Shown: piece by piece, positions 6,292 through 29,291 of the stretch
Layout of the letters: each line of letters begins with the position of its first letter
How positions within the stretch are numbered: the first letter of the stretch is position 1
DNA from: a virus
Length of the DNA stretch: 29,291 nt
Strand: one strand, 5' to 3'
Virus record (IMG/VR): IMGVR_UViG_3300037069_001242
Location: 1 to 29,291 of that record
Notes under the pieces: model-generated
Seen by the model: the letters and a program-made list of their open reading frames with translations, nothing else
The model's database searches: none
Told to the model about the DNA's origin: nothing
Position numbers and translations under genes: made by a program

Positions 6292-6300
6292 TCTACTGCC

Positions 6301-6495: not shown

Positions 6496-6502
6496 GTACC
6501 GA

Positions 6503-6923: not shown

Positions 6924-6948
6924 GTTTGCTGTGGGTTTACTTGAGCCC

Positions 6949-7019: not shown

Positions 7020-7051
7020 GTTATTATTAAACTCATGAAAGGTGTAAAAAC

Positions 7052-7279: not shown

Positions 7280-7280
7280 T

Positions 7281-8210: not shown

Positions 8211-8222
8211 GGAGTTTTACAA

Positions 8223-8879
8223 ATGGCAACAACTAACAAGACCGAGCATGTGACTATCACCGCTCCGAACATTCAGAGCGTCCAGGTCCGACTCGTCGGC
8301 ACCGCCCCGCTCATGACCGCGCGCTTCAGCCAAAAGGCAATGCGCATGATGCAAGACAAAATGACCGGCGTGACCAAAGCCGGTAGCCGAGTCCGCGAAA
8401 AGCGCGACTTCAATGACGACTACGAACAGGCCAAGCACGTCAGTGCCGACGGCTGGCCCGGCTTTCCGAGCTCCGGCCTGCGCGCTGCAATGGTAAGCGC
8501 CTGTCGCCTCGTCGACTTCCAAATGACCCGCGCTAAGATTTCCATTTTCGTCAAGGCCGACGGCTACGACGTGGTGGACGGCGTGGGCCTGTTCCAAATC
8601 TACGGCGAACCGCACCCCAACACATCCGGCGTGCGCAACGCGACCGGCGTGCTCGACTTGCGCGTCCGCCCAATGTGGGACCAGTGGTTTGCCGAGCCGG
8701 TCGTCCAGTACGATGCTGACCAGTTCAGCCTGAGCGACGTCATCAACTTGCTCAAGCGCGCTGGCATGCAGGTCGGGCTGGGTGAGGGTCGGCCGGACAG
8801 CAAAAAAGGCGTGGGCCTGGGCTTCGGTACGTTCGACGTCGAAACCATCGACCAGCCTCGTCCGTTCAAAGTAAAATAA
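8223..8879 (+). CDS. Phage protein of unknown function, Gly-rich C-terminus
   Basis: 218 aa with a strong AAGGAG site 8 nt before the ATG. Features: TAPLMTARFSQKAM near 28-40, a DGWPGFPSSGLRAAMVSACR block at 76-95, VRNATGVLDLRVRPMWDQWF at 137-156, and the Gly-rich loop GLGEGRPDSKKGVGLGFG at 185-202. The pattern looks like a phage protein family that travels with the next gene; I cannot name it. The PGFPSSG block and the C-terminal Gly loop resemble RAMP (Cas7/Cas5-type) RNA-binding folds, which is a speculation from motif shape. A nucleic-acid-binding or replication role is plausible next to the replication module. Confidence 0.75.
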   Translation: MATTNKTEHVTITAPNIQSVQVRLVGTAPLMTARFSQKAMRMMQDKMTGVTKAGSRVREKRDFNDDYEQAKHVSADGWPGFPSSGLRAAMVSACRLVDFQMTRAKISIFVKADGYDVVDGVGLFQIYGEPHPNTSGVRNATGVLDLRVRPMWDQWFAEPVVQYDADQFSLSDVINLLKRAGMQVGLGEGRPDSKKGVGLGFGTFDVETIDQPRPFKVK

Positions 8880-8898
8880 AGTCATAGGAGGATTTCAT

Positions 8899-9396
8899 AT
8901 GGCAAGTAGTACACGTAAACTAACACCCGACGTCCAAAACGCGTTTCAGCGCATCATGGACCAAAGCCCCACGCGGGGACTCGTGGCGCGGGATGTCGTC
9001 GAACACGCACGGGCAGACAGCAGCCCATTGCACAAGTATTTCGAGTGGGACGACGACAGGGCAGCCGAGCTGTGGCGCGAACGCCAAGCGCGTGAGCTCA
9101 TCAGCTCGTTCACCATCACGGTCGAGAACTACGAAACGCCAGTGCAGGCGTTCGTCAGCCTCGACTCGGACCGCTACAATCACACCGGCTATCGTTGGAC
9201 GGTCGACGTCATGGCCGAGCCAACACTGCGCGACAGTTACCTACGCACGGCGCTGCATGAGCTGCAGTCAATCGAGGCGCGCTACGCGCACGTTACGCAG
9301 CTCTCAACCGTGTTCCGCGCGGTACACAAAGTTGAGCGCAGCCTGAAGCAAGAAATGACACCAGCAGGCCGGAAATCGGTCAAAGCTGGCAAGTAG
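8899..9396 (+). CDS. Phage protein of unknown function, partner of the previous gene
   Basis: 165 aa, AGGAGG about 9 nt before the ATG. The segment VARDVVEHARADSSPLHKYF (28-47), continuing EWDDDRAAELWRERQARELI, then a beta region and a C-terminal helical domain (DSYLRTALHELQSIEARYAH) resembles a family of phage proteins I have seen described only as hypothetical. It directly follows the 218-aa gene, 19 nt apart, and the pair probably works together. The GG-pentamer block starts immediately after its stop. Confidence 0.75.
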   Translation: MASSTRKLTPDVQNAFQRIMDQSPTRGLVARDVVEHARADSSPLHKYFEWDDDRAAELWRERQARELISSFTITVENYETPVQAFVSLDSDRYNHTGYRWTVDVMAEPTLRDSYLRTALHELQSIEARYAHVTQLSTVFRAVHKVERSLKQEMTPAGRKSVKAGK

Positions 9397-9399
9397 ATA

Positions 9400-9955
9400 C
9401 GGCAGGTATCGCATGGCATGGCATTGCATGGCATGGCAAGGACAGGTTCGCCCAGGCTAGGTAATGTGAGGTCCGGCAGGTGCGACAAGGCAAGTTTACG
9501 CACGATGAGGCAAGCCCTGTTCGGGCGAGGCGAGATATAGGTTCGGTTCGGCAGGTAAGGTTCGGTTCGGCGGGGCGTGGCTAGGTTGCTTGAGGCTAGG
9601 TATGGCAGGTACGGCTAGGCAAGTTCTGACTAGGTAAGGCAGCGTTCGGCAGGGAAAGGTTCGGTAGGGTATGGCAGGTGAGGTAAGTCGAGTTCCGGCT
9701 AGATGTGTTGAGGCCAGCTGAGGCTTGGCGGGGTAAGGTCCGATATGGTACGGCAGGTAAGGCACGGTAACGGTTAGGCGAGGCGGGTTTCGGCCTGCTA
9801 AGGCATGCTCTGGTTCGGCCAGATTCGGCAGGTAAGGCAGCGTTTGGCTAGGTACGTCGTGGCAAGGCAGGTTGTGGTGCGCTTCGGCAGGTAAGGCTAG
9901 GCTAGTTGCGCTAAGGACTGGTGAGCTCGGATGGGGCGAGGCATGGCAGGCAACA
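9400..9955 (+). repeat. GG-pentamer periodic region (NNNGG)n, non-coding
   Basis: About 555 nt without a credible gene. The plus strand is built from degenerate pentamers ending in GG (TTCGG, CTAGG, TAAGG, TGAGG, CATGG). Between 9545 and 9600, GG starts at 9545, 9550, 9554, 9559, 9564, 9569, 9574, 9579, 9584, 9594 and 9599. A longer motif GGCAGGTAAGG, where one step is 4 nt, recurs at least four times exactly and about eight times with variants. C occurs mostly singly, so the strands are strongly asymmetric. Pentamers differ from each other, so this is no simple microsatellite except near 9410-9440 (CATGG units). Confidence 0.85.
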
Positions 9956-10009
9956 ACCTGTAGTACAATTTGACCTGTGGCGGATGTCTTAAAAAGCCGC
10001 CAACATCAT
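9956..10009 (+). other. Short spacer with hairpin
   Basis: TGGCGG (9978-9983) and CCGCCA can pair around a 13-nt A/T-rich loop. TACAAT at 9964-9969 resembles a -10 box but has no -35. It may be the promoter region or 5' processing site for the following RNAs. Confidence 0.3.
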
Positions 10010-10079
10010 GAGCGCGTAGTGTACGCAGCACGTCCCGTTGAGACGGGAAGGCCCGGGCCCATCCCCGGCGCGCTCCACC
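10010..10079 (+). ncRNA. Cloverleaf-like RNA element, not a standard tRNA
   Basis: GAGCGCG (10010-10016) pairs perfectly with CGCGCTC (10069-10075). Inside are GTG/CAC (3 bp, loop TACGCAG), TCCCG/CGGGA (5 bp, 6-nt loop TTGAGA) and CCGGG/CCCGG (5 bp, loop CCCATC). The arrangement copies a compact tRNA cloverleaf, but the T loop lacks TTC, the D loop lacks GG and the 3' end is CACC. It lies 8 nt before a real tRNA. Degenerate tRNA or another structured RNA. Confidence 0.4.
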
Positions 10080-10083
10080 TTAA

Positions 10084-10158
10084 TGCAGGGGGTAGGTTGG
10101 ATTCTGGCGAGCCTCATAAACTCGTTACAAGTCGGTTCGATTCCGGCCCCTGCTACCA
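10084..10158 (+). tRNA. tRNA-Met (CAU)
   Basis: 75 nt with encoded CCA. Acceptor TGCAGGG/CCCTGCT with pair 1-72 a T-T mismatch, D arm TAGG/TCTG with a short 6-nt loop containing GG, anticodon stem CGAGC/ACTCG with the last pair open, loop CTCATAA (anticodon CAT), T arm GTCGG-TTCGATT-CCGGC, discriminator A. CAU tRNAs can read Met or, with lysidine, Ile AUA. The unpaired first position recalls initiator tRNA, but the GGG/CCC anticodon-stem signature of initiators is missing. Phage-encoded tRNAs usually offset host codon bias or tRNA cleavage. Confidence 0.8.
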
Positions 10159-10199
10159 AAGTTATTAGTTAACACGTTAATCAATTTTAGGGGGATATA

Positions 10200-10421
10200 A
10201 TGGCAGACGAAACACCAACGAAACACATTTTCCAAGCCCGACTTTTTCAGCAGGCGCGCGTCAACACCGAGACATTCGAGATTGAGGCAGCCAACGCGCA
10301 AGAAGCCAAAAACCGCGCCGAGGCGATTGCCAAGGACAAAGGTTTGACCGACTACGATTTCGAGTTTACGGACCTCACGAGCGTGGCCGAAAGCTCGGCA
10401 AATCAAGCGCCGAGTGAGTAG
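10200..10421 (+). CDS. Hypothetical acidic protein
   Basis: 73 aa, AGGGGG 5 nt before the ATG. One beta-alpha unit is suggested (HIFQARLFQQARVNTETFEI then helix NAQEAKNRAEAIAKDKG), ending in a Ser/Ala/Glu-rich tail. Not recognised. It lies alone between the tRNA and the leader RNA of the replication initiator. Confidence 0.65.
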   Translation: MADETPTKHIFQARLFQQARVNTETFEIEAANAQEAKNRAEAIAKDKGLTDYDFEFTDLTSVAESSANQAPSE

Positions 10422-10441
10422 TTTTTCGGCCCCGTTTTCTG

Positions 10442-10450
10442 TGCTATAAT
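10442..10450 (+). promoter_or_regulatory. Extended -10 promoter
   Basis: TGCTATAAT: perfect -10 hexamer at 10445-10450 with the TG extension. The -35 position (10422-10427) is T-rich but poor. The start point would be near 10457, in front of the structured leader RNA. Confidence 0.6.
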
Positions 10451-10456
10451 GCCGAG

Positions 10457-10628
10457 TAATGGGGTCAATCAGTTTCGTGTCGCAACAGCTGTGCGGCTCC
10501 ATGAAAACATCCACTAACTAACAGGGGTGTTTACATCGGACACAAGCCATGCTAATGTATCAGAAGCGATACGGAACTGAGTGGCTCAAAACTCACCGAT
10601 TTAAGCGCCCCGAGAGAGGCGCTTTTTT
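10457..10628 (+). ncRNA. Structured RNA upstream of the replication initiator
   Basis: About 170 nt between the extended -10 promoter and an intrinsic terminator. Five consecutive stem-loops can be drawn: GTCGCA/TGCGGC (10479-10497), AAACATCC/GGGTGTTT (10505-10532), GTATC/GATAC (10557-10572), TGAGT/ACTCA (10578-10595) and the terminator AAGCGCC/GGCGCTT (10603-10624). It could be a free small RNA or a 5' leader that controls read-through into the initiator gene. It matches no RNA family I recognise. Confidence 0.55.
10603..10628 (+). terminator. Intrinsic terminator overlapping a ribosome-binding site
   Basis: AAGCGCC (10603-10609), 8-nt loop CCGAGAGA, GGCGCTT (10618-10624), six T in a row (10623-10628), then C and the ATG at 10630. 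The GAGAGAGG that should act as Shine-Dalgarno for that ATG lies in the loop and 3' arm of the hairpin. Confidence 0.8.
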
Positions 10629-10629
10629 C

Positions 10630-11487
10630 ATGAAAGGCTTTGGCATCTACGTCAAGAATGACCTGCTAGAACCAAAACATGTGGCTGCAATGGGTGAGGC
10701 TGTATGGCTGTACCTGTGGCTACTCGACAAAATGACATCGGTGAACGAGAACGGGGTAGGGCGCGTGCTCGGTGGCTCGGCAATCACCTACGAGCAAGCC
10801 AAGGCTGACCTCGGTATCCATCGCAACACTTATGTCAAATACGTGCGTCGACTGCGTGATGCAGGCTATATCCAAACGCTCCGTACTCCTTATGGCATGA
10901 TTATCAGTGTTGTCAAGGCTCAAAAGCCGTTCAAACCAAGAAGCACACGAACGCGTGCAACTAAGAAGTCGACGGATGAGATGCACACGAAACGGCACAT
11001 CTCTAGTGATGCACACGAACATGTGCAACCAGATGCACACGAACATGTGCAACCAGATGCACACGATTGGGGCAGAGATGCACACGATTGGGGCAGAGAT
11101 GCACACGAAACGGTACATGTAATTAAGACAATACAAGACAATACAATAGACAATACAAGTATTACTAACGTAATAGACGCATCCGCGTCGAAGCGTTATG
11201 GAAAACCTGAAATAAACGAACTGTTTGATTTTTGGGCTACAATTTGCGGTTATAACATCGAATCACGTGTCACTGCAAATCGTCGTGCAGCAAGCTCATT
11301 GCTCAAAAAGCACGGCAAGGACAAACTCGAACAACTAATCCGAGGCGTCGGTATGGCTCACAGCGACCGATATGCGCCTCGGATTTCTGATTTCACCCAG
11401 CTACAGCAAAAGACCAACGAACTCGTAATGTGGGGTCGCAAGAAACATGGGGGCGATGTCAACGCACCAAGGAGTTACAAAATATGA
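10630..11487 (+). CDS. Replication initiation protein (winged-helix/DnaD-like)
   Basis: 285 aa from the ATG at 10630. The family-like N-terminus KGFGIYVKNDLLEPKH starts here; the longer frame from 10549 would run through the terminator. Residues about 10-100 form a winged-helix domain (VWLYLWLLDKM, then LGIHRNTYVKYVRRLRDAGY, a recognition-type helix and wing). Residues about 117-162 are a His/Asp-rich repeated linker produced by iterons in the DNA. The C-terminal part (INELFDFWATICGYN, RRAASSLLKKHGKDKLEQLI, DRYAPRISDF) resembles the DnaD-type tail of phage initiators. It would bind its own iterons and recruit host helicase. No phage helicase is visible nearby. Confidence 0.8.
   Translation: MKGFGIYVKNDLLEPKHVAAMGEAVWLYLWLLDKMTSVNENGVGRVLGGSAITYEQAKADLGIHRNTYVKYVRRLRDAGYIQTLRTPYGMIISVVKAQKPFKPRSTRTRATKKSTDEMHTKRHISSDAHEHVQPDAHEHVQPDAHDWGRDAHDWGRDAHETVHVIKTIQDNTIDNTSITNVIDASASKRYGKPEINELFDFWATICGYNIESRVTANRRAASSLLKKHGKDKLEQLIRGVGMAHSDRYAPRISDFTQLQQKTNELVMWGRKKHGGDVNAPRSYKI
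10943..11108 (+). repeat. Seven iterons inside the initiator gene, probable origin
   Basis: GCACACGA starts at 10943, 10983, 11011, 11035, 11059, 11080 and 11101, so intervals are 40, 28, 24, 24, 21 and 21 bp, about two helical turns in the core. Two neighbouring units are identical over 24 bp, and two others over 21 bp. Several units contain the dyad GCACA-N6-TGTGC. Iterons inside the initiator gene, followed by an AT-rich stretch, match the lambda O/ori layout. Confidence 0.75.
11118..11180 (+). other. AT-rich candidate unwinding element
   Basis: Directly after the last iteron the sequence turns AT-rich with three copies of GACAATACAA-like repeats (GACAATACAAGACAATACAA region, 11127-11158) and TAATTAAG. 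It still encodes the initiator (an Ile/Asn/Thr/Asp stretch). This is the position where a DNA unwinding element would be expected. Confidence 0.5.
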
Positions 11488-11924
11488 GCTATTCCATCCG
11501 ATTCCGTGGGCGCGATATGCCTGACGTCGAAGTCAGCACCGAGCGTGGCGATAAGCTGAAAGAGATTTGGTTCGACATGAACCGGCAGGATGACCACATC
11601 GACATCGACGGCAACGCGTATGTCGTCAAAGACATCAAAGGGTTTCGTCGCACCGCTGACCCAATCCCAGCCAAACCACGCGACTACTCGCAGACCGCGC
11701 TGACATCCGGCAGAATCTGCCGTGGCAAGTACAGCATCCAAAAGGAAATCCTGCGCATTGCCCGAGAGGTCGGCGGCAAAACCAGCGACCAAAACCCCGA
11801 GGGTACACGCTGGACGTTACTGATTCAGGACCTCGACTGGAAAGAGATGATTCGCCACCAGTTACGCGAACAATCCGGTGTCCTCTGGTGTGACCACCGG
11901 GCAGGGGATTGCGCTTGTGACTAA
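11484..11924 (+). CDS. Hypothetical protein
   Basis: 146 aa from the ATG that overlaps the initiator stop (ATGA), with AAGGAG 9 nt upstream; a longer frame to 11430 lies inside the initiator gene. N-terminal beta-rich region (YSIRFRGRDMPDVEVST, then DIDGNAYVVKDIKGFRR) and a helical C-terminus ending in CDHRAGDCACD. Not recognised. Probably co-translated with the initiator. Confidence 0.65.
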   Translation: MSYSIRFRGRDMPDVEVSTERGDKLKEIWFDMNRQDDHIDIDGNAYVVKDIKGFRRTADPIPAKPRDYSQTALTSGRICRGKYSIQKEILRIAREVGGKTSDQNPEGTRWTLLIQDLDWKEMIRHQLREQSGVLWCDHRAGDCACD

Positions 11925-12438
11925 GGAAATCACATGGCAGCAGTTCAGCTACGACGACCGCCTGAGACTGCGCAAGGCATACGAAGCACGCTGGGACGAG
12001 CTAACGCACGGTGAAAGGATTGACCCTTACGCCATATGGCCCCACAACTGGACAGCCTACATGTCACCGATAGAGTGCAACGTGTGGGGTGACATTCGCT
12101 CTCATGGCCTGCCGCTTTATCCACAACTTCCAATCGGACCCTATTTCGCGGACTTCGCCAGCCCAAGCCTACGCCTTGTCATCGAAGTTGATGGGCGCGC
12201 GTACCACCTCGACAAGCAAAAAGATGCTCAACGCCAGAAGTACCTCGAAAGCGTGGGCTACGAAGTGCATCGTGTTGATGGTCACACCACGTTTGCCGAC
12301 GTCGGCGTGCTAGAGGAAAAATGGGCACAGCAGGAATTGGACCAAGAGCAAATTGAGTCCGCCAAGCGTCTACTCATCGAGCGAGGGTGTGCCGAGTTAC
12401 TCGTTATCGAGTTGGCCCGAGGTGTCCGTTATGCTTGA
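11917..12438 (+). CDS. DUF559-like PD-(D/E)xK nuclease
   Basis: 173 aa from a GTG with AGGGGA 8 nt upstream, overlapping the previous stop by 8 nt; an ATG at 11878 would give 13 more residues but has no ribosome-binding site. The core matches the DUF559/Vsr-like fold: PIECNVWGDI (E53), GPYFADFASPSLRLVIEVDG (D79, E90, D92), a basic helix (DKQKDAQRQKYLESVGYEVH) and a final strand. Such proteins are predicted to cut or nick DNA. Next to the initiator it may act in recombination or replication intermediates, or against competitor DNA. Activity is inferred from motifs. Confidence 0.75.
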   Translation: MTKEITWQQFSYDDRLRLRKAYEARWDELTHGERIDPYAIWPHNWTAYMSPIECNVWGDIRSHGLPLYPQLPIGPYFADFASPSLRLVIEVDGRAYHLDKQKDAQRQKYLESVGYEVHRVDGHTTFADVGVLEEKWAQQELDQEQIESAKRLLIERGCAELLVIELARGVRYA

Positions 12439-12688
12439 CGACTACCAAATCGCTTGCGGCGCCCCCACCTGCGAGTTCTACGGCGACACGTTCGAGCTCG
12501 TTCTGCGCCACAACCGCCGCGCTCATCCCGAACGCCTACAGCCCGAATCGCCCGACATCCGCCGCATCCTCGACGAGCTTGTCACCAACGCCCACAACCA
12601 CTACGTCTACGGGGACAGCTTCGACTTCACGCTGCGCGCAATCGACGTCGCCGAGTTCAAGCTGAAACGGCTCATGGCTCATGGCTGA
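12431..12688 (+). CDS. Hypothetical protein
   Basis: 85 aa from the ATG at 12431, overlapping the nuclease stop by 8 nt, with GAGGTG upstream. N-terminal CGAPTCEFYGDTFELVLRHN and LRHNRRAHPER suggest a possible metal site (Cys, Cys, His, His); the C-terminal half is helical. Not recognised. Confidence 0.6.
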   Translation: MLDDYQIACGAPTCEFYGDTFELVLRHNRRAHPERLQPESPDIRRILDELVTNAHNHYVYGDSFDFTLRAIDVAEFKLKRLMAHG

Positions 12689-12773
12689 CACCCCGCTCTG
12701 CCCGAAATGCGGCGCCAAACTACTCGTCAGCAGGTACGGCACGCTTTGTGGTTATTGCCTTTGGGAACCGTAA
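12681..12773 (+). CDS. 30-aa zinc-ribbon mini-protein
   Basis: Two CxxC knuckles, CPKCG and CGYC, 17 residues apart, a complete minimal zinc ribbon. The ATG overlaps the upstream stop by 8 nt. The -35 of the packaging promoter lies within its last codons. Function unknown. Confidence 0.6.
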   Translation: MADTPLCPKCGAKLLVSRYGTLCGYCLWEP

Positions 12774-12783
12774 CCGCTACAAT
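12755..12783 (+). promoter_or_regulatory. Promoter of the packaging module
   Basis: TTGCCT (12755-12760), 17-nt spacer, TACAAT (12778-12783). The start point would be near 12790, about 14 nt before the small terminase ATG, which has GAGG 7 nt upstream. Confidence 0.55.
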
Positions 12784-12803
12784 GCCTGCAAACGAGGGAA
12801 CCT

Positions 12804-13412
12804 ATGGCAGCTCATAACGGCACCAACGACACACAAACAGTAGTCGCACCGCAAAAAGGGGGCGTCAAACAATCGGAAATGAAGCGTCGTGATGGCCAGC
12901 TCGTCACTCCAAAGCAAGCAGCGTTTATCAAAGGGGTAGCAGCAGGGAAGTCCGGCACACAGGCTGCGCTCGACGCGTACAACACCACGAGCGCGGACAC
13001 CGCCAAGGCCATCGCATCTGAGAACTTATCGAAACCCAACGTGAAAATTGCACTCCAACAGGCGTTAGAACGTAGTGGATTAAGCATCGACCGCGTGGCA
13101 GAGGTCATCACCGACGCATCCAATGCCACCCGAATCGCATCCGGCCCACGCGTCGCCATCGCACCAGACGGCACAGCCACCACCATACCGGGCCTAGTCG
13201 AAACCGACATACCCGACCACGGCACCAGGCTCAACGCCGCTCGGCTCGCCACACAGCTGATGGGCGCGTTCGACAAAGACGACGACGGCAGCGGCAAAGT
13301 CACGTTCAATTTCGGCGGAAACGCCAAGGTTTATCTCAAAAATGATATACACACGGCCGACACGAAGCCGCAAGGACCTCCAAAAGACGCTGAAACACCC
13401 GAGGTCGCGTAA
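12804..13412 (+). CDS. terS: Terminase small subunit
   Basis: 202 aa. The N-terminal DNA-binding region QLVTPKQAAFIKGVAAGKSG (32-51), continuing TQAALDAYN and ENLSKPNVKIALQQALERSG, is the classic small-terminase helix-turn-helix pattern (XtmA/Terminase_2 type). The middle part would form the oligomerisation region; the C-terminus is Pro/Lys/Glu-rich and probably contacts the large subunit. It recognises the packaging site in the phage DNA. Position upstream of the large subunit is normal, although five small genes lie between. Confidence 0.85.
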   Translation: MAAHNGTNDTQTVVAPQKGGVKQSEMKRRDGQLVTPKQAAFIKGVAAGKSGTQAALDAYNTTSADTAKAIASENLSKPNVKIALQQALERSGLSIDRVAEVITDASNATRIASGPRVAIAPDGTATTIPGLVETDIPDHGTRLNAARLATQLMGAFDKDDDGSGKVTFNFGGNAKVYLKNDIHTADTKPQGPPKDAETPEVA

Positions 13413-13945
13413 TGGCTACATCATTCACGACGTCAGACACCATGCAAACCTACTTCGAGCAGTACGCCATGCACAAGTACGGGCTCACTAGTCTCAAGAT
13501 ATCTCAGCAGCCATCCATCAAGGGTTACGTTATCACCGCCAGCCGTAACGGTGCCACCGTCGACGCCACAGTCTCAGACGCGCAGGTCGACGGTTTGCTC
13601 GGACCGGACCAGTCCGTCCAATACCTAATCGACAAAATGGCCCACGAATTAGACCGTATAAGCCCGCGCAAAGGCAAAACCATATCGTTTACCAAGTACG
13701 CCCCACAAAGCCCGTCAGACGTCCTAGATTTGCGTCACAGAGCAATTGAGGGCATGGGCGACATCCGCACTTTGTACGAGCAACGCATGATGGACACGCC
13801 CGACCGTCCCCGCGTGCTCGTCCTTACCCTCCAACAACTCAAGGCAGCCGAGCAATCCCCCGAATGGCTAGGGCGCGTGATGCTCAACGAGGGCGACCAC
13901 ATTCCCGAAATCCACGGCATGAAAGTCGAGGTGCGGCGTGATTGA
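13412..13945 (+). CDS. Hypothetical protein of the packaging module
   Basis: 177 aa; the ATG shares its A with the small terminase stop (TAATG). N-terminal helices, a beta segment (IKGYVITASRNGATVDATVS), and a C-terminal alpha/beta part (RPRVLVLTLQQLKAAEQSPE, then IHGMKVEVRRD). Not recognised. The end overlaps the phosphatase-like gene by 8 nt. Confidence 0.65.
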   Translation: MATSFTTSDTMQTYFEQYAMHKYGLTSLKISQQPSIKGYVITASRNGATVDATVSDAQVDGLLGPDQSVQYLIDKMAHELDRISPRKGKTISFTKYAPQSPSDVLDLRHRAIEGMGDIRTLYEQRMMDTPDRPRVLVLTLQQLKAAEQSPEWLGRVMLNEGDHIPEIHGMKVEVRRD

Positions 13946-14363
13946 CCCGAGCATCAAGTGGAAAGCCAACAGGCGGCTCATCACACCCGTCGACATCATC
14001 CACTCGCGTTTATCCAAGAAGCACTCAGTCGGCAAGGTCCTCGCGGTCGACTTCGACGGCGTCATCCACGACCACAAGCGACCGATTGACGGCAAGCGCA
14101 TGGGCAAGCCACTCCCCGGCGCCGAGCAATCCGTCAACGACCTGTACAACCAGGGCTACACCATCATCATTCACTCGCAGCGCGCCAACAGCGAGAGCGG
14201 CAAGCAGTCAATCGTCGACTGGCTCGACCACTACGGCATCTCGTACAGCGCCGTCACCGCACTCAAACCACCAGCCGACTTCTACATCGACGACAAAGCC
14301 GTCACGCACAAAGACTGGCCGACGACGCTCATGCACATTGGCTACGTGCCCGAGGTCAAGTGA
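13938..14363 (+). CDS. HAD-superfamily phosphatase-like protein
   Basis: 141 aa with GTG start. Motif I VDFDGVIHDH (D38, D40), motif II IIIHSQR (S80), a Lys in LKPP (K110) as motif III candidate and motif IV FYIDDKAV (D118, D119) are all present, without a large cap domain. Known phage relatives are polynucleotide-end or nucleotide phosphatases; the substrate here is unknown. Residues 1-32 form a basic helical extension. The stop overlaps the next start. Its place between the terminase genes suggests DNA end or nucleotide processing, but that is only context. Confidence 0.75.
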   Translation: MIDPSIKWKANRRLITPVDIIHSRLSKKHSVGKVLAVDFDGVIHDHKRPIDGKRMGKPLPGAEQSVNDLYNQGYTIIIHSQRANSESGKQSIVDWLDHYGISYSAVTALKPPADFYIDDKAVTHKDWPTTLMHIGYVPEVK

Positions 14364-14593
14364 TGGCAGACGCACCCAAAGGCCAACCACTCTGCGCCGG
14401 TTGCCTAGAGCCCATCGAAACACCCGACGTCATCCAACAATTCAGCCTAGAGAATCGCTACAAGCGCGACTACGCCAACACACACTTGGGTACCATCCAC
14501 GAGCACGGGCTTGAGCCGCGCGTCCTACTCTGCAAGAACTGCCTCGCCAAGCTCGAAGCCATAAAAGCCAAGGACCACGCCCATGGCAAATAA
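14363..14593 (+). CDS. Small zinc-finger protein
   Basis: 76 aa from the ATG at 14363, with GAGG upstream and overlap with the previous TGA. CAGC (residues about 11-14) and CKNC (about 57-60) form a long-spaced zinc site; the region between has conserved-looking HLGTIHEHG histidines. Fold resembles DksA- or HNH-like zinc scaffolds but lacks their catalytic marks. Function unknown. Confidence 0.65.
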   Translation: MADAPKGQPLCAGCLEPIETPDVIQQFSLENRYKRDYANTHLGTIHEHGLEPRVLLCKNCLAKLEAIKAKDHAHGK

Positions 14594-14900
14594 CCGCATG
14601 ATGTTGGTGTGCAACACTTGCTACCCTACCGACGAGGACATCTATGCCAACCATGGCAAAAGCTGGGCTGAACAACGGCCCGACTTCATTAGTGTCGGCA
14701 AGTGGTATCCCGTCGGCAGCTACCGCACACACACCGATTTAGAGCTTGGAAACGCCATCAACGAGTACCTCGACCGACACTCCCATGAACTAGACGACCC
14801 GAAGCTGAATGAGAACCCGGTGCGGCTGACGTATGAAACGTGGGTCATCGACCAACCCGCCATAACAGCATGGAAGTACGAACCAAATGCCAGTGATTGA
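14583..14900 (+). CDS. Hypothetical protein
   Basis: 105 aa, overlapping its neighbours by 11 and 14 nt. N-terminal CNTCYPTDEDIYANH and a later WYPVGSYRTH hint at a small beta domain, possibly with a metal site through C10 and C13; the C-terminus is beta-rich (RLTYETWVIDQPAITAWKYE). Not recognised. Confidence 0.65.
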   Translation: MANNRMMLVCNTCYPTDEDIYANHGKSWAEQRPDFISVGKWYPVGSYRTHTDLELGNAINEYLDRHSHELDDPKLNENPVRLTYETWVIDQPAITAWKYEPNASD

Positions 14901-15894
14901 CTACAAAGGTTTCGCCGAGGCGCATTTCTACATCAAGAACAAACACGGCGTCTTAGAGCCGTTCAAGTTCAACGACGTGCAGCGCGACTACTACGACGCC
15001 TTACAAGCCGACTATCCCGACATGCAGGGCATCCGCGAGAACATCCTCAAAGGGCGGCAGTTCGGCCTGAGTAGCGAGATAACCGCCATCTTCGCGACCG
15101 ACCTCATCATGTCCGAAATCGGCGAAATCCCCATCATCGACAGCGACGTCTACTCACACAAAGACGAAGAGACTGCCGCACACATCGAACGGTTCAACCT
15201 GTTCGTAAACAGCTACCTGTTCGCCACACAAGGCGGCTCCGCACTCGACATCGAGGATAACCGCGACGCGCTGCTCATGATGCGCAAACAGTTCTTTCAG
15301 TCCGATACTGGTGGCGACCTCATCACGCGCCGACGCCGGGCGCAATACCACTGCCAAACCGCCAGCGCCAAAGTCTCCGGCCGTGGTGGTACCAAGCAGA
15401 ACATTCACTGGTCCGAGGTGGCGTTCTACCCGAACACCGAAATCATGAACGCCAAGAAGCTCGTGGTCGGTGCCGAGAAGCAGGTGCCGCAGAACTACGG
15501 CAAGATATTCCGCGAAACAACTGGCAACCTGGCAGCTGACTACTTCGCCGAAGAGTACAAAGCCGGTAAGGACGGCATCAGCCTGTTCAAGAGCCGCTTC
15601 ATCGCCTGGTACACGTACAAGGATTATCGCGCGCCCGCGCCCGAGGACTGGAACGCCCCAGCCTACTACGCCGCACTGCTCGAAACCCGGCAAGCCGACC
15701 GCGACCAATGCTACTGGCACTATCGCCAGACCAAAGGCTTGCAGGACAAAGAAGAGCTGCGCGAGTACCCGACCTACGACACCGAGGCGTTCCTGTACGG
15801 CGGCAAACCGTTTTTCAATGCCGAGGCCCTGATATTCCACACCAACCGCATCAAGCAACCGATAAGTGAAGCGATGTATGTCCAAGCGCTTTGA
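14887..15894 (+). CDS. terL: Terminase large subunit, ATPase part (split gene)
   Basis: 335 aa. Contains the packaging-motor ATPase motifs: Walker A-like LKGRQFGLSS (54-63), Walker B NIHWSEVAF (172-180) and the coupling motif TTGN (211-214), preceded by an FNDVQRDYYDAL adenine-motif region. It stops after a linker-like segment (FFNAEALIFHTN) where a normal large terminase would continue into its nuclease domain. That domain is encoded separately at 16105, in the same reading frame, 231 nt further on than expected. Only the last five residues (YVQAL) come from the inserted DNA. The two polypeptides would have to assemble to package DNA. Confidence 0.85.
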   Translation: MPVIDYKGFAEAHFYIKNKHGVLEPFKFNDVQRDYYDALQADYPDMQGIRENILKGRQFGLSSEITAIFATDLIMSEIGEIPIIDSDVYSHKDEETAAHIERFNLFVNSYLFATQGGSALDIEDNRDALLMMRKQFFQSDTGGDLITRRRRAQYHCQTASAKVSGRGGTKQNIHWSEVAFYPNTEIMNAKKLVVGAEKQVPQNYGKIFRETTGNLAADYFAEEYKAGKDGISLFKSRFIAWYTYKDYRAPAPEDWNAPAYYAALLETRQADRDQCYWHYRQTKGLQDKEELREYPTYDTEAFLYGGKPFFNAEALIFHTNRIKQPISEAMYVQAL

Positions 15895-16108
15895 GTGCAT
15901 CCGTAAGACGCAGCAGTTGCCCAATGGCCCAGTCATTGACGGCCATGCGTATAAACCAGTCGTGGGCATAAACGACATCGACACCGGGCGCACATACTCG
16001 GTGATGCAATGCGTGAGGTGCGACAAACTCAGCGTAGGTTTTTACGAGGGGTACGAACCAGTGACCGACTCGATAGGCCCAATTGTCAACGTGGGGGGCG
16101 CCTGATGT
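15873..16108 (+). mobile_element. 231-nt insertion splitting the large terminase
   Basis: GATGT at 15873-15877 and again at 16104-16108 bracket 231 nt, a multiple of three. Removing one copy plus the intervening DNA joins SEA-M to MFRLYRPIQPGE in frame and restores a terminase of about 539 aa, a normal length. The insert carries its own 75-aa gene. No intron, intein or transposase signs are seen. Confidence 0.6.
15878..16105 (+). CDS. 75-aa protein inside the split terminase
   Basis: Frame different from the terminase, ATG at 15878 overlapping the ATPase part by 17 nt, stop overlapping the nuclease start (TGATG). Beta-rich with one CVRC knuckle (residues about 45-48) and C7 near the N-terminus; no HNH, GIY-YIG or LAGLIDADG motif. 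Possibly a small accessory protein or a remnant of an insertion. The weak AAGTGA upstream suggests low or coupled translation. Confidence 0.6.
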   Translation: MSKRFECIRKTQQLPNGPVIDGHAYKPVVGINDIDTGRTYSVMQCVRCDKLSVGFYEGYEPVTDSIGPIVNVGGA

Positions 16109-16737
16109 TCCGCTTATACCGCCCCATCCAACCCGGCGAGTTTTTCGTATGCTTCGGCGACACCGCGCAGGGCGGCATCGACAAGAACTACGTGCAGTTC
16201 ATGAGCCAGACCCAGCTCGACATCCCGCTCGTCCTGGCGATGCACGGCACCGCTGCCGAGGCCACGCCGTTCCTCATCCAAGCGCTGCGCTACATCCGCC
16301 AGAAAACCGGCATCCCGCCAACCGTCGCACTGGAACGGCAGAACGGTGGCGCCAGTGCCATGCACGACCTGATGATGGCCAACAGCAGCGACGAGTACAC
16401 CATCTACATCGCCAAGACCGAGGGTGGCGTGATGGGCGAGGACCAGACCAAGAAGCTCGGTTGGGACACGAACGCCATTAGCAGACCGCAGATGCTCGGC
16501 CAGTGGCTCACCGCGTTCAACTCGCGCCAGGTCAAAATCTACGACCGCGAAACCATCGAGCAGCACAGCACGTTCATCGTCAACAAGAACGGCAAACCCG
16601 AAGCCGCCCCCAACACCCACGACGACGCCGTCATGAGCTGCGCCGGTGTCTGGCAGATGTATCAGACCGAGCAGCCACCATCGACCGAGCCACAGGAATA
16701 CACCAGCGGCAACTTTGCGAGTGCGTGGCTATCATGA
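16105..16737 (+). CDS. terL: Terminase large subunit, nuclease part (split gene)
   Basis: 210 aa starting at the ATG within TGATG, with a GGGGGG run upstream. It has the RNase H-like nuclease pattern of terminases: VCFGDTAQGGIDKNYVQF (D19), TVALERQNGG (E77) and NTHDDAVMSC (D173, D174). It cuts concatemers at the start and end of packaging. N-terminal YRPIQPGEFF is the usual linker to the ATPase domain, so the break lies exactly at the domain boundary. Confidence 0.85.
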   Translation: MFRLYRPIQPGEFFVCFGDTAQGGIDKNYVQFMSQTQLDIPLVLAMHGTAAEATPFLIQALRYIRQKTGIPPTVALERQNGGASAMHDLMMANSSDEYTIYIAKTEGGVMGEDQTKKLGWDTNAISRPQMLGQWLTAFNSRQVKIYDRETIEQHSTFIVNKNGKPEAAPNTHDDAVMSCAGVWQMYQTEQPPSTEPQEYTSGNFASAWLS

Positions 16738-22486: not shown

Positions 22487-23398
22487 ATGGCCAATACGAC
22501 CAGCTCCACCTTGTCCGCCGACCTACAGACTTACTTTAGTAAGAAGCTGCAGATTCAGGCGAAGTACAAGACCGTCCTCGACCAGTTTGGCTGGACCGAG
22601 AACATTCCTGCGCAAAGCAGCAAAACAATATCATTCACTCAGTACGCAGACCTAGCACCCGCTATCAGCTCGCTCACAGAAGGCACGCCGCCATCCAACG
22701 AAGCACTGTCTAGCACCGCATCTACGGCTACCATCAACCAAATCGGTGCCTACGTGACACTGACCGACCTGGCCACGCTGACCGTCAAGCACCCCGTAAC
22801 CCAAAAGACTACGGAACTGCTCGGCGTGCAGGGCGCTCGTTCCTACGACCGCCTCATCAACGCCACCGTTGTTGCGGGTACCAACGTCGTATACGCAGGC
22901 GGTGCCGCTAACCGCGCAGCCCTGGCCGCCGGTAACGTCATCACCACGACCGAAATCCGTAAGGCAGTCACCATGCTGCGCAACAACGGTGCGGTTGAGT
23001 TCGACGACGGTAACTTCGTGCTCGTGCTCGACCCGTCGGTTGAGGGCGACCTGCTCGGTGACACCACGTTCGCCAACACGGTATACCGCCAGGCAACTCC
23101 GGCCAAGCAGAACGAACTGTACAAGGGTATCGTAACGGTATGGGGCGGCGTGACCGTTGTTCGTAGTAACAACATCCCGACCATCTCTAGCACCGTGACG
23201 GTTCACACCAGCTACGTGTTCGGACAGAACGCTTACGCCGTGACCGACCTGCAGAGTATGCAGATGTACACCGAGGGTCCTGGTACCGTGTCCGACCCGC
23301 TACACCAGATAATGACGATGGGTTGGAAGTGCGGATTCGCTTGCGTAATCCTGAACAACAGCTTCATGGTTCGTATCGAGAGCGCTTCGGCATTCTAG
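22487..23398 (+). CDS. Major capsid protein, N4-gp56 family
   Basis: 303 aa, AAAGAGG 12 nt before the ATG. The family pattern is clear: an N-terminal YFSKKLQIQAKYKTVLDQFG, then NIPAQSSKTISFTQYADLAP, LTEGTPP, an INQIGAYVTLTDLATLTVKH strand-helix, a GTNVVYAGGA turn and the C-terminal GTVSDPLHQIMTMGWKCGFA. N4-gp56-type proteins have the HK97 fold and build the icosahedral head. At 303 aa it is shorter than N4 gp56 but in the range of small relatives. GC-rich, highly codon-biased, as expected for the most abundant protein. Confidence 0.88.
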   Translation: MANTTSSTLSADLQTYFSKKLQIQAKYKTVLDQFGWTENIPAQSSKTISFTQYADLAPAISSLTEGTPPSNEALSSTASTATINQIGAYVTLTDLATLTVKHPVTQKTTELLGVQGARSYDRLINATVVAGTNVVYAGGAANRAALAAGNVITTTEIRKAVTMLRNNGAVEFDDGNFVLVLDPSVEGDLLGDTTFANTVYRQATPAKQNELYKGIVTVWGGVTVVRSNNIPTISSTVTVHTSYVFGQNAYAVTDLQSMQMYTEGPGTVSDPLHQIMTMGWKCGFACVILNNSFMVRIESASAF

Positions 23399-24275: not shown

Positions 24276-25313
24276 ATGAAAAATTATTTAATTTCTCTAG
24301 TAGCAGGTTTAATATTCATGGCACCAACATTCACAGTCAACCCCGCTGCAGGTGGTATACCCATCTCCGGCAACTTGGGGCCGTCACAAAATACTATCCA
24401 AACGCCGTCCCCGAGCAGTAACTTTCAAATCACTGCCCCGACCCAAAACCAGTACCTCGGCGGCACCATCTCCTCGCCACAGACCGGCGGCGGAACGGCG
24501 GCAGCATCTCCCGTTGACAACACCGGGATGACCGCCGGTCAGCTCAACGCCTCCAACATATCGCAAATCAACGGCCAGCTCGGGCAACTCGACCCGCAGC
24601 AACAAATCGGCCTGGACAACCTGCAGAACTCATACAATAACTCGCTGAACGGCCTCAACCAGCAACACGGCATCGCCCAGAATCAGTACAACACCCAGCA
24701 GCAGCAGAATACCCAGAACTACACCAACAACCGCAACAACATTATCACCAACACCAACGCGCAGATGAGCGCCTTGCAGCGCCTGCTCGGGCTGAACGGT
24801 GCCGGTAACAGCTCCGCCGCCTACGACCTCGTGCCCTACGCCGCCAGTCAGTACGGCAGCCAGAATCTCAACCAGGCCCAGCAGACTTACGGACAGAACG
24901 GCTCTAACCTGCAGAACGCTTGGGACGCTACCGAAGCCAGTTACAACACGAACAAGGACAACCTCGGCCACCAGCTCTACGCCGGTCAAAACAGCCTGAA
25001 GAGCGGTATCGCCCAGACCCGTGCCAACTTGCTCAGTGAACTCGGCCAGTTACAGGGCAACAGCGCACAGTACGACCCGCAAATCAATTCCCTGCTCAGC
25101 CAAATCACGCAGCTGTCGAACCAGTACGCCAACCCTGTCATGCAGACTGACAAGCTCAGCTTCACCCCGGCCACGCTCGCCAACTACAGTCTTGGCCAAC
25201 AGACGGCCGCTCACAATAGCCAGAACCCCGGCGCCAGTGAGATAAACCCGACGTTCCTGGGTATGCTGCAGGGCAACCAGCGCGACCAATTCGGTAACAT
25301 AATCACAGGATAA
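24276..25313 (+). CDS. Gln/Asn-rich putative virion protein
   Basis: 345 aa. Residues 1-18 look like a hydrophobic signal-like segment (MKNYLISLVAGLIF), but its DNA is unusually AT-rich and AGG lies only 3 nt before this ATG. The ATG at 24318 (MAPTFTVNPAAGG), with AGCAGG 10 nt upstream, is an equally likely start. The body is Gln/Asn/Ser-rich with many YNN, QQ and NNL repeats (QNQYNTQQQQNTQNYTNN) and helical segments (SQINGQLGQLDPQQQIGLDN). No enzyme motif. Low-complexity proteins of this kind in phages are often internal virion or ejection proteins. Confidence 0.65.
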   Translation: MKNYLISLVAGLIFMAPTFTVNPAAGGIPISGNLGPSQNTIQTPSPSSNFQITAPTQNQYLGGTISSPQTGGGTAAASPVDNTGMTAGQLNASNISQINGQLGQLDPQQQIGLDNLQNSYNNSLNGLNQQHGIAQNQYNTQQQQNTQNYTNNRNNIITNTNAQMSALQRLLGLNGAGNSSAAYDLVPYAASQYGSQNLNQAQQTYGQNGSNLQNAWDATEASYNTNKDNLGHQLYAGQNSLKSGIAQTRANLLSELGQLQGNSAQYDPQINSLLSQITQLSNQYANPVMQTDKLSFTPATLANYSLGQQTAAHNSQNPGASEINPTFLGMLQGNQRDQFGNIITG

Positions 25314-25319: not shown

Positions 25320-25865
25320 ATGTCGAACTTTCTTTCAGACCTCGTCAACGCTGGCAAGGCACTCATAGGCGATAACAACAAGCCGGCAGCAGCTGCAGCG
25401 CGAGTGGTCACCCCGCAAAGCAATCCATACAGCTACCAACTCAACGCGCAGCAACCGCAGATACAGGGCTCGCAGAATCCCGGCTATATACCGCTGCAAA
25501 ACTCCGGTTTCGGACCAGCTGGATACTCGTCCGGCTTGCAGAACGCATACAGCAACCCCCAGCAGGGCCAGCCGTTGCAGTACCTGCGTAGTGGCGGCAC
25601 GTTCGGACCGTACAGCGTCGGCGCTGGCGGCAACTACGGCGGCGGCATCCAACAGGGCTTTGTCCCGGCAGCCATCGCCAACGCCCAAGCTATGCAGTTA
25701 CAACAAGCCACACCCGGCGCGTTGCCACAAGGCAACGCCTACAATCCCGGCTATATACCGCTGCAAAACTCCGGTTTCGGACCCGTCGGCCAAACCGTCG
25801 GTATGCAGCCCACACAGCAGCAACTGCCGACTCTTAACCCGCAGCAAGGAATGAATCTGTACTAA
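25320..25865 (+). CDS. Putative virion protein with duplicated motif
   Basis: 181 aa, 6 nt after the previous stop. The N-terminus MSNFLSDLVNAGKALIGD is similar to the start of the next protein (MGFLDNLVNMGQAVAAQI), suggesting a common amphipathic targeting helix. The remainder is Gln/Gly/Asn/Pro-rich. NPGYIPLQNSGFGP occurs twice, encoded by identical 41-nt DNA segments at 25476-25516 and 25743-25783. Probably a structural or ejected protein. Confidence 0.6.
   Translation: MSNFLSDLVNAGKALIGDNNKPAAAAARVVTPQSNPYSYQLNAQQPQIQGSQNPGYIPLQNSGFGPAGYSSGLQNAYSNPQQGQPLQYLRSGGTFGPYSVGAGGNYGGGIQQGFVPAAIANAQAMQLQQATPGALPQGNAYNPGYIPLQNSGFGPVGQTVGMQPTQQQLPTLNPQQGMNLY
25476..25783 (+). repeat. Perfect 41-bp direct repeat within one gene
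   Basis: Copies at 25476-25516 and 25743-25783, identical over 41 bp including third codon positions, both in frame. The interval is 267 bp. The lack of silent differences suggests recent duplication or gene conversion. Confidence 0.85.
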
Positions 25866-28800
25866 TGGGCTTCCTCGACAACCTCGTCAACATGGGCCAA
25901 GCGGTCGCCGCCCAAATAAACCCGTTCGACAACGGCCGGACGTACAACAGCGTGCGACAGCAGGGCGCTAACTTCACGCCACGCGCACCCGCACCCGTCT
26001 ACCAGCAGGCGACCCACAACGGCCTGACCAACTTTGTCGGCGGCTCGATGGTCAAGCCGCTGATTCAATTCCCGCTCGACGCTGGCATACAGCTGTACAA
26101 TCACGGCGTCGCTCCGGCGTTCAACCTGCCGCAGCAGCAGCTGCAGAACAACCCGCTCCTGCAATACAGCGCCAAATTCGCGGGTGCCAACGGTTCGATG
26201 CGGCAGACTATAGGGTCGGGCATTCAAACCGGCCTGACGCTCGCAGGCGGCCCTCTGACGAGCCTTGCCGAGCGCGGGGTCGGTACGACTGCCGCCGCAC
26301 TCATGCCACGCGCTACATCTGCAGCCTTGGGTGCTGCTCGACTGGGACTGCCCGAAGCAGCTGCCGGTCGAGCATTGCCCACGGTTATTAAGTACGGCAC
26401 TGGCGCGCTCGCGGGTTCTGCCGGTGGTGCTGGGTTCAATGCCGCCGCTGCATACGGGGCTGGTGCTAATGCCAAGCAGACATGGAAAGCTGCCGGTCAA
26501 GGTAGTTTGTTCGGGCTGGGGCTGGGTGTTGGGGCGCCACTGGCGGCGGATGCGCTCGGTGCTGGCGCTAAGTTGGTGCATGACAACACTAGGCCGCTCA
26601 GTAACCAGCATGGTTTCTTAGGTGGCCCGAACGCCACGGGCTACAAAGCCGCCCAAGCCGCAGGTAAAGTGTTCCCTGGCGTTGACGGCCAACCACGGTT
26701 CGAGGGTGATGATAGTGGGGCGAAGTGGAAAGACTTTTATAAGACGGTCAATAATAGCGCGCCGCAAAAGCTCGGCGACGTACTCGACCACCCGGCCCTA
26801 TTCCAACAGTACCCGGACCTCAAAGACGTGACCGTCAAGTTCAACAAGGGCGCAGAATCCGATGGGACCAAGGGACAATCCGGCAAGAACAGCATCATGT
26901 TGCATACGGCATCGTTCAGTGGCACAGGCGGCCAGATTGCGGACGACATGAAAGGCACACTGCTACACGAGGTCCAGCACGTCATACAGGAAAAAGAGGG
27001 TTTTGCAACAGGGGGCTCACCTGACTTAATACGCCAGAGCGCAGTGGCTGAGGCCCGTAAGAATATGGAGGCACTCAGGGCTCCTATGAATAAGGCCGGT
27101 TTTGACACCCCCGAGTACAAAACGCTACAGGCTCAATATCGTAAGAATGCTCAAGTGCTACACCAAGCTTTATTCAATCCAGAGGATTTTCATAGTCAGT
27201 ACAAGAAACTAGCTGGCGAAGCCGAAGCCCGTGCCGTTCAAGCTCGGATGAATATGCCTGATTCGCAGCGGTACGTAAAGGGGCAGCAGTATTATCATGG
27301 CACCAGCACCGATGCCGCGAACGCCATACGCAAAGAGGGCTTCAAAGACCATACAGGTAAAAACCTATCCCCAGCTTTCGGAAACGGCACTTACTTAGTA
27401 AACCGACGAACGGGCGCAATGAGCTATGCAGATTTCAGGCGCAAGAATGTTATCAGCGCGTATTTACCAGATAACCTCAAGCTGTACAAGGCCAAGGATA
27501 GTGAGGCGTATACGCTTGATACCAAAAAACTCAAACAACAGGGCTATGACGGCGTCGAGATACCCTATAGCGCGACTGAAAAGAATGTCACGATATTTAA
27601 CCCCGATAAAATCAAGGTTGGTAAAGCTCCCGCCAAATCCACATTCTACAACTCCCTAGACGTCCCCAAGGACCAGCTGATTGTGCAGCATGATGGCGGT
27701 AAAGCGGCCGCCAGAGTAAACCCCGAAGCACCCAAACCGGACATCCAGCCTATCCTCGCTCACATGAAACAGTTTCCCAACGGCGTAGACGTAAACGCCG
27801 TGCGTGAGGCTTTCAAGAACGACCCAGAGGCCCTACTGAAGCTCGAACAGACACAGCACGAAATACTTGCTAAAAAAGCAGCCGACGTTACAAAGGCTAC
27901 TCAGGAAAAAGTCGCGGCAGCCGAAGCCAACGCCCGCGCAAGCGGTACTAAAACCCCGCTCGGCAAACCCCAGCAGTACCGCACCATCCACCAAGGCGGC
28001 CAGATTAAGGCTGTCGAGGGTCAGCCGGTCAAAATCGTCGACGGTGTCGATACATTCGTGCACAAAGGCGACAATGGTTACATCGTCAGTGAGGCATCCA
28101 CCGGCCAGTTCCTAGCCACATCGACATCGCCAGAGGGTGCAATCGCCAAGGCAAAGTTCAGTATAAATAATGTGGGCCTAAGTAAGTTCAAGCAGCTCAT
28201 AGCAGAGAAACAGCTACCGGCCGAACAGCTCGCTACTAAGGCACCCGCAGCCCCGAAAACCGCAGCCACCCCAGAAATTGACTTGAGCGGTCCTGACAAG
28301 TTCGACGACCCGAACACCTACTACAAGGCAAATGAGACAGAGGCCGAGTTCCAAGCACGTCGCAAAGCAGCCCAGGCTGGCCCAAACGGGTATCTGTACG
28401 GAACCGACAAAGAAGTAAAAGCAGCCCAGGCGAACGCCAAATCCGCCAACCCCGAACTAGCTAAACTCCAAGCCCAGCTACCCAAAGGCTACACCGCACA
28501 GGCTGACGGCTCCGTACTCGACCCCAAAGGCCAGGAAATGACAATGGGCGCGGTCCAGGACCTCGTACAGCCCAAATACATCACCGAGTTCGAGCACGCC
28601 ACCAAGACCGGCGACCACGCCACCATGCAGCGCATCGCCGCCGAGCACCCGAACGACAACCGCGTGCACATCGGCGTGACTGATACAAAGCCGAGCGCAG
28701 ACGTCAACGCCCTCAACACACAGCGCAACTCAATACTCGAAGCACGCCGGACACTCGACCAAAAGTTGAGCACTGAATACGACGCAAAAGCCAAGAACCT

Positions 28801-29291
28801 CAGCCCAGCCGACGCCGAAAAACTCAAGGCACAGTATCAGACCCGATTCAGCAAAGAGGCTCCGTCAACTGACGCCCTCGACAAGCAAATCAAAGATTTC
28901 CAAATGAACGAAGTGGCCGACAAAAAGACGCAGACCACCGTAACGCGCCTCGTAAATGAGTCCCACAGTCAGAACACATACGACCCGAAGAGCACCGGCT
29001 ACTTCATCGACCTATCACCCAAAAACATCAAAGATGTCACGCCCCTCAAAGGCATCAACGACTACCCCAAGCAGAGTGGCGAGCACAACATCTATGTCGA
29101 TACGAAATCGGGCATTACCAGTGTCCGTGTAGAGCCCTGGAACGACGGTGAGTGGCGTGTATCAAACGGCAATGGCAATGAAATCGCGCGGCTACCATCC
29201 GAACAAGCGGCGGTTGATTTCGGCAAAAAAGCACTCACTATCGAGAATGAGGCCGCACGCCAAGGCAAGCGAGTTATATTAAGCGGTTCCA
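25865..29291 (+). CDS. Giant polyvalent protein with metallopeptidase- and ART-like regions (partial)
   Basis: More than 1140 codons, open to the right edge; the ATG shares a base with the previous stop. In order: an amphipathic N-terminus (1-20), a Gly/Ala-rich hydrophobic region (about 115-240), a LLHEVQHVIQEKEGFATGG segment with the HExxH zinc-protease motif at 368-372 and a distant GEAEARAV (E452) as possible third ligand, then YYHGTSTDAANAIRKEGFKD (H478) with a later GNGTYL and GVEIPY, the pattern of an ADP-ribosyltransferase fold (about 475-590), and a long helical, Lys/Ala/Gln-rich C-terminal part. Such multidomain polyvalent proteins are known in phages and are thought to be delivered with the genome. 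Enzyme activity is inferred from motifs. Confidence 0.75.
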   Translation, partial: MGFLDNLVNMGQAVAAQINPFDNGRTYNSVRQQGANFTPRAPAPVYQQATHNGLTNFVGGSMVKPLIQFPLDAGIQLYNHGVAPAFNLPQQQLQNNPLLQYSAKFAGANGSMRQTIGSGIQTGLTLAGGPLTSLAERGVGTTAAALMPRATSAALGAARLGLPEAAAGRALPTVIKYGTGALAGSAGGAGFNAAAAYGAGANAKQTWKAAGQGSLFGLGLGVGAPLAADALGAGAKLVHDNTRPLSNQHGFLGGPNATGYKAAQAAGKVFPGVDGQPRFEGDDSGAKWKDFYKTVNNSAPQKLGDVLDHPALFQQYPDLKDVTVKFNKGAESDGTKGQSGKNSIMLHTASFSGTGGQIADDMKGTLLHEVQHVIQEKEGFATGGSPDLIRQSAVAEARKNMEALRAPMNKAGFDTPEYKTLQAQYRKNAQVLHQALFNPEDFHSQYKKLAGEAEARAVQARMNMPDSQRYVKGQQYYHGTSTDAANAIRKEGFKDHTGKNLSPAFGNGTYLVNRRTGAMSYADFRRKNVISAYLPDNLKLYKAKDSEAYTLDTKKLKQQGYDGVEIPYSATEKNVTIFNPDKIKVGKAPAKSTFYNSLDVPKDQLIVQHDGGKAAARVNPEAPKPDIQPILAHMKQFPNGVDVNAVREAFKNDPEALLKLEQTQHEILAKKAADVTKATQEKVAAAEANARASGTKTPLGKPQQYRTIHQGGQIKAVEGQPVKIVDGVDTFVHKGDNGYIVSEASTGQFLATSTSPEGAIAKAKFSINNVGLSKFKQLIAEKQLPAEQLATKAPAAPKTAATPEIDLSGPDKFDDPNTYYKANETEAEFQARRKAAQAGPNGYLYGTDKEVKAAQANAKSANPELAKLQAQLPKGYTAQADGSVLDPKGQEMTMGAVQDLVQPKYITEFEHATKTGDHATMQRIAAEHPNDNRVHIGVTDTKPSADVNALNTQRNSILEARRTLDQKLSTEYDAKAKNLSPADAEKLKAQYQTRFSKEAPSTDALDKQIKDFQMNEVADKKTQTTVTRLVNESHSQNTYDPKSTGYFIDLSPKNIKDVTPLKGINDYPKQSGEHNIYVDTKSGITSVRVEPWNDGEWRVSNGNGNEIARLPSEQAAVDFGKKALTIENEAARQGKRVILSGS

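Follow-up and report, generated by a model that had tools for sequence, protein, structure and literature searches.

A truncated phage gene with an ADP-ribosyltransferase-type domain nested in a predicted metallopeptidase and with relatives joined to internal virion proteins

The Gene and Its Genomic Setting

The window, meaning the whole stretch of DNA that was analysed, is one entire IMG/VR virus record of 29,291 bases. An open frame on the plus strand starts with an ATG at 25865 and extends to 29290 (1142 codons) with no stop up to the contig end, in agreement with an original prediction from the sequence alone that had described one gene of more than 1140 codons. As the window represents the whole virus record, this gene, called the polyvalent gene below, is cut at the contig end. 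It is located in the head/structural region, with a terminase piece (phrog_24361) and the major capsid protein (phrog_1357) upstream. Homologues of a conserved neighbour gene of 345 amino acids were found in the same order, just 5' of the polyvalent gene, in L013 and L002, two of the loci compared with the window, and a scan with this neighbour led to the contig of L013 again and to nothing else. The following features were assigned:

22487 to 23398, plus strand: major capsid protein (phrog_1357, E 6e-46)
24276 to 25313, plus strand: conserved neighbour gene, 345 aa (homologues in L013, 39% identity, and L002, 31%)
25865 to 29290, plus strand: polyvalent/internal virion protein gene, its first 1142 codons, cut off where the contig stops (single open frame without a stop)
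25865 to 26539, plus strand: conserved N-terminal region, residues 1–225, with most of the Gly/Ala-rich stretch 101–240 (similarity to L013 and L002; G+A content)
25919 to 25942, plus strand: NPFDNGRT motif, residues 19–26, candidate virion-targeting tag (motif count and position)
26627 to 26746, plus strand: degenerate LPD23-like segment, about residues 255–294, containing GKVFPGVDGQPRFEGDDSGAKW (alignment with LPD23 of relatives)
26747 to 27274, plus strand: zincin-type metallopeptidase domain, about residues 295–470, with H368, E369, H372 and E452 (invariant motifs, model, family matches)
27275 to 27643, plus strand: nested ART-PolyVal-type ADP-ribosyltransferase (ART) domain, about residues 471–593, with H478, Y510, D562 and N574 (profile-profile comparison)
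27647 to 27730, plus strand: displaced terminal strand segment of the peptidase domain, residues 595–622, YNSLDVPKDQLIVQHDGGKAA (segment profile, 12.7 bits)
27731 to 28564, plus strand: unassigned middle region, residues 623–900 (low-confidence model; no relatives)
28565 to 29290, plus strand: exchangeable C-terminal module, residues 901–1142, 242 codons (L002 nucleotide match)

Searches with the full-length window protein gave nothing above threshold in Pfam, NCBIfam or PDB sequences, and the case for its domains therefore rests on relatives. RNA families were found neither in the window nor in L002.

The N-Terminal Region and Its Motif

The N-terminus of the window protein shows weak similarity to that of the L013 protein (24% identity, E 1e-4) and resembles the L002 protein with 28% identity over residues 17–158 and 46% over residues 6–44. 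A hydrophobic Gly/Ala region had been proposed and is indeed present, with a G+A content of 46% in residues 101–240 compared to 23% overall, and with one marginal hydrophobic peak of 19 residues at 209–227 (mean 1.11).

Close to the start of the protein lies the NPFDNGRT motif. An N-P-F-D-G-G-K-T-like octamer pattern was matched 10 times in the 984,000 residues of open frames of the loci compared with the window, whereas shuffled sequences gave 0.95 matches on average; as the sequences were already known when the pattern was drawn up, this excess is descriptive. The stronger point is the positional restriction of the octamer. All matches fall within ~65 residues of a protein start: once each in the polyvalent/internal-virion proteins of the window, L013, L097 and L102, twice each in those of L002 and L098, and in the product of the gene just 5' in L002 and L097. 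The octamer is absent from L103. In analogy to the T4 capsid targeting sequence, the hypothesis is put forward that the NPFDNGRT-type motif might be a virion-targeting tag. A short gene just 5' of the polyvalent gene was also seen to recur (window 25320–25865, L097 4506–5000, L002 9357–9842); it starts with the N-terminal motif in L097 and L002, and the motif is not recognisable in the window copy.

The Zincin-Type Peptidase Domain and Its LPD23-Like Segment

The zinc-protease motif LLHEVQHVIQ, already noticed in the original prediction, was substantiated by the comparison with relatives. HEVQH occupies residues 368–372 and is followed by GEAEAR at 451–456, in which E452 is a candidate zinc ligand. 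HExxH, G-E-x-E-A-R and several neighbouring positions are invariant in an alignment of 49 sequences, and a search with a five-sequence alignment revealed at least 538 confirmed relatives of the HExxH region in IMG/VR, of which 80 were kept. From this number of relatives and the invariance of HExxH and GE.EAR, it can be concluded that the HExxH region did not arise by chance. A tblastn search of named phages located the peptidase region, with 27–31% identity, in F116-like phages, Pseudomonas phage AF and others; the annotations of these proteins range from hypothetical and PLxRFG to structural or internal virion protein. Among the relatives, solo proteins of about 400–600 residues are common, and others are embedded in giant proteins of up to nearly 5000.

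LPD23 (PF18838) was matched by 43 of the 49 family members, and further Pfam matches were to DUF6782 (a putative metallopeptidase; 12 members), Peptidase_M78 (five) and ART-PolyVal (eight). The window itself has no Pfam LPD23 hit, its segment aligns with the LPD23 of relatives, and L013 reaches E 0.0019, which is below the cut-off. The window peptidase likewise stays under the Pfam thresholds, and P0006 passes both cut-offs (DUF6782 and Peptidase_M78). Residues ~255–470 probably form a genuine LPD23-zincin unit.

The predicted model is of high confidence over most of the peptidase domain and places HExxH and E452 on helices. Fold matches of the window model in BFVD were mostly polyvalent-domain proteins, 15 of them at E below 1e-3. 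A PDB fold search with the peptidase-ART model returned helical-bundle look-alikes only and matched no solved fold, and the name zincin-type therefore rests on motif and family evidence rather than on a fold match. The ART part of the model is of low confidence.

Two further records are of separate interest. In the 278-kb Pseudomonas aeruginosa plasmid p382, positions 1098–16100 encode a 5000-residue LPD23 protein with a peptidase and an ART-like region, and the plasmid is possibly a phage-plasmid. The Limnohabitans phage DC33 (PQ492659, 39 kb) encodes a 3125-residue polyvalent protein and is filed under Inoviridae, likely due to a taxonomy error.

The ADP-Ribosyltransferase-Type Domain and Its Nesting

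An ART-like HGT...GxGxYL pattern had been proposed downstream of the peptidase motif, and this feature is present: HGT corresponds to residues 478–480, Y510 lies in GNGTYL and D562 in GYDGVE. Profile-profile comparison by hhalign, with a two-sequence profile of the window and L013 as query and five established or likely ART-PolyVal members as target, yielded 97.8% probability (E 8.8e-13, 120 columns). Pfam ART-PolyVal (PF18760) gave 15.8 bits (E 0.025) for the full length and 23.9 bits (E 7.5e-5) for the segment at a cut-off of 31.2, and a Pfam PARP match on the window protein was also sub-threshold (E 0.0043). H478, Y510 and D562 agree with the H-Y-D configuration of polyvalent-protein ARTs, in which H lies on strand 1, Y on strand 2 and D on strand 5 (Iyer et al. 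2017, PMC5512222). The aspartate of GYDG, D562, would correspond to the strand-5 residue of that description.

A deviation was found at position 574, ahead of a V-V-F strand, where the window has N and L013 has T, compared to E or Q in most aligned members; E/Q at this position is a feature of the members aligned here and lies outside the published ART-PolyVal definition. Because N574 replaces the usual E/Q, ART activity is uncertain, and the predicted ART may be weak or dead. The ART segment has a GC content of 47.7%, compared to 54–64% in the flanking parts of the gene.

In most relatives of the peptidase, a D-V-P-x-x-x(-x)-I-V segment is located about 25–45 residues after GE.EAR, and several proteins end right there. 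Only in the window and L013 does the ART start 27–29 residues after GE.EAR, ahead of the D-V-P segment; other relatives with a downstream ART have it placed after this segment. A profile of the D-V-P segment, trained on 56 other family members with the window, L013 and L097 left out, matches residues 595–622 of the window (12.7 bits), 659–700 of L013 and 672–713 of L097, which has an uninterrupted peptidase without an ART. The best score on shuffled sequences was 5.0 bits, among the shuffles that reported a match. The simplest reading of these matches is that the peptidase domain received an ART cassette ahead of its last strand. An arrangement in which the ART simply follows the peptidase was dropped, as the displaced terminal strand was found after the ART (595–622). 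The presence of both peptidase and ART, as first suggested, stood, but the ART is inserted into the peptidase rather than placed after it.

Internal Virion Proteins and a Variable Slot in Related Phages

The L013 protein matches the window over residues 252–608 (31% identity, E 4e-41). It has 839 residues and is encoded by a separate gene, with an LPD23-peptidase[ART] part followed by a C-terminal stretch that looks ParB-like by eye. The next gene in L013 encodes 1091 residues that match the phrog_6651 internal virion protein as well as internal virion proteins of Syn5, P60, ProddE and CRP-403. A search with this internal virion gene found L097, L098, L102 and L103; each of these encodes N-terminal part and internal virion protein together in a single fused polypeptide, of 1352–1785 residues. 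The insert between the two parts is an LPD23-peptidase in L097 and a ParB-like-looking stretch in L102, and no recognised enzyme domain was found in the inserts of L098 and L103. The 2383-residue protein of L002 combines an LPD1-type peptidase region, with an LPD1 match and a HEFAH motif, a module that also occurs in the window, and a region of internal virion protein type; residues 1877–2097 of P0002 match the internal virion protein D of ProddE.

According to these sequences, two parts are kept in related phages, an N-terminal region and an internal virion protein of T7-gp16 type, either fused or adjoining, and the segment between them varies. By comparison with these relatives, the window gene would be expected to extend by about 1100 codons that encode an internal virion protein.

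The Middle Region and the Shared C-Terminal Module

No relatives of the middle region (residues 601–900) were found by pattern scan or tblastn, and the C-terminal half was modelled with a mean pLDDT of 55. From residue 901 on, the gene shares a module with L002: window 28565–29291 and L002 12947–13673 are 96.8% identical in nucleotides, with no similarity immediately upstream. The two copies differ by 12 synonymous and nine non-synonymous codons. Elsewhere, the two genomes are far apart (about 53% protein identity in the terminase and 21% in the capsid). Searches of bacterial and archaeal genomes and of named phages did not turn up the module.

A recent exchange of this module between phages is likely, as judged from the nucleotide match. 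Alternatively, the C-terminal 727 bases could come from an assembly chimera with another phage, which would render the apparent exchange an artefact. The 97% match indeed extends to the very end of the contig between unrelated flanks, but the reading frame is kept across the junction at 28565, which lies 727 bases from the contig end, the L002 module occupies an equivalent position between effector region and internal virion protein, and the copies differ at 21 codons, so a chimera is considered quite unlikely. New effector domains had been suspected in the long C-terminal half; this half turned out to consist in part of the apparently exchanged module (901–1142), and no sign that this module is a new effector was seen, its predicted model being poor.

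Proposed Function

The window gene is proposed, with a probability of roughly 65%, to encode a polyvalent ejection protein of a tailed phage, probably podovirus-like, with an exchangeable effector slot that holds a peptidase[ART] unit. Peptidase and ART share one frame, so that biochemically unrelated domains are combined in one polypeptide. The earlier suggestion of a polyvalent protein gains support in that both domains belong to polyvalent-protein families, the gene lies in the structural region and relatives are joined to internal virion proteins. In the proposed mechanism, the conserved N-terminus and the missing, presumably T7-gp16-like C-terminal part would serve packaging and ejection. 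The slot between N-terminus and ejection part would carry enzyme domains that are directed at the host and can be exchanged; in the window, these are an LPD23-zincin metallopeptidase and the ART inserted before its last strand. The protein would most likely be packaged in the head and enter the cell with the first DNA. Inside the cell, the peptidase might cleave its own polypeptide, of which no direct sign was seen, or a host protein, and the ART might modify host targets by ADP-ribosylation.

It might also be that peptidase and ART are maturation or structural parts, the peptidase trimming the core protein at assembly and the ART being a degenerate spacer. This is reminiscent of DdrB of phage P1, which is processed before packaging, and a processing role has been proposed for such peptidases (PMC5512222); Asn in the window and Thr in L013 at ART position 574, instead of E/Q, point in the same direction. 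However, L098, L102 and L103 share the internal virion protein without having the peptidase, which is therefore not needed for assembly in this group, and the ART retains its H, Y and D, so this explanation appears rather unlikely. Early expression as a free, unpackaged polyvalent effector, as is conceivable for the solo LPD23-peptidase proteins of 400–600 amino acids in other phages, is very improbable: many relatives are solo proteins, but the homologues of the N-terminus in related phages form one polypeptide with an internal virion protein, and the gene is placed in the structural region.

Beyond the ejection protein with an effector slot as proposed for the window, a more general and tentative idea is that the T7-gp16-like ejection protein of this phage group serves as a general injection vehicle, in which the N-terminal NPFDGGKT-type tag, carried in two relatives by the product of the preceding gene as well, would direct cargo to the virion core, effector modules would be swapped between tag and ejection part, and the ART-in-peptidase would act as a protease-coupled payload.

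Relation to Known Systems

The N-terminal part of T7 gp16 is a lytic transglycosylase, whereas the domains in the window's group are variable and of effector type. Internal virion proteins D of the T7 gp16-like kind (Syn5, P60, ProddE) appear in relatives of the window gene as the C-terminal half or as the next gene. T4 Alt is a model for an ART that is packaged in the head and injected; it belongs to the R-S-E clade, whereas the window ART falls in the H-Y-D (ART-PolyVal) clade and shares its polypeptide with a peptidase. The virion RNA polymerase of phage N4 is similar in its features, being a giant ejected protein with a HExxH domain that is packaged unprocessed, but no counterpart of its RNA polymerase module was seen in the window protein. 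Like the window protein with its LPD23-like and ART-PolyVal-type parts, gp60 of Pseudomonas phage F116 combines LPD23, a HExxH peptidase with GE.EAR and ART-PolyVal in one giant tailed-phage protein. In F116, the ART is located about 300 residues after a complete peptidase, whereas the window ART lies inside the peptidase, before its last strand, and the LPD23 part is degenerate in the window.

Phage polyvalent proteins, including peptidase and ART domains, have been described (Iyer et al. 2017, PMC5512222), and their injection was predicted in 2017. Polyvalent effectors as such are known; the nested ART-in-peptidase architecture and the slot series, which were not found described in the open-access papers covered, appear to be new. 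The group offers a natural comparison for how polyvalent domains are selected, transported and exchanged: one kind of internal virion protein occurs with no recognised enzyme, a peptidase, a peptidase with an inserted ART, or other cargo, and the recurring N-terminal motif provides a concrete candidate for a packaging signal.

Additional Observations in the Window

The large terminase is apparently split in the window (14887–16737) into open frames at 14887–15894 and from an ATG at 16105 to 16737, with a Cys-containing frame of ~75 codons between them that overlaps via start and stop codons. The terminase of L002 is similarly split, with a different small frame (257–622). On the minus strand, window 1865–4745 holds a cluster that is probably devoted to recombination/replication, with genes for a RecE-like exonuclease (phrog_434) and an AAA-type ATPase-like protein (phrog_3757/10401).
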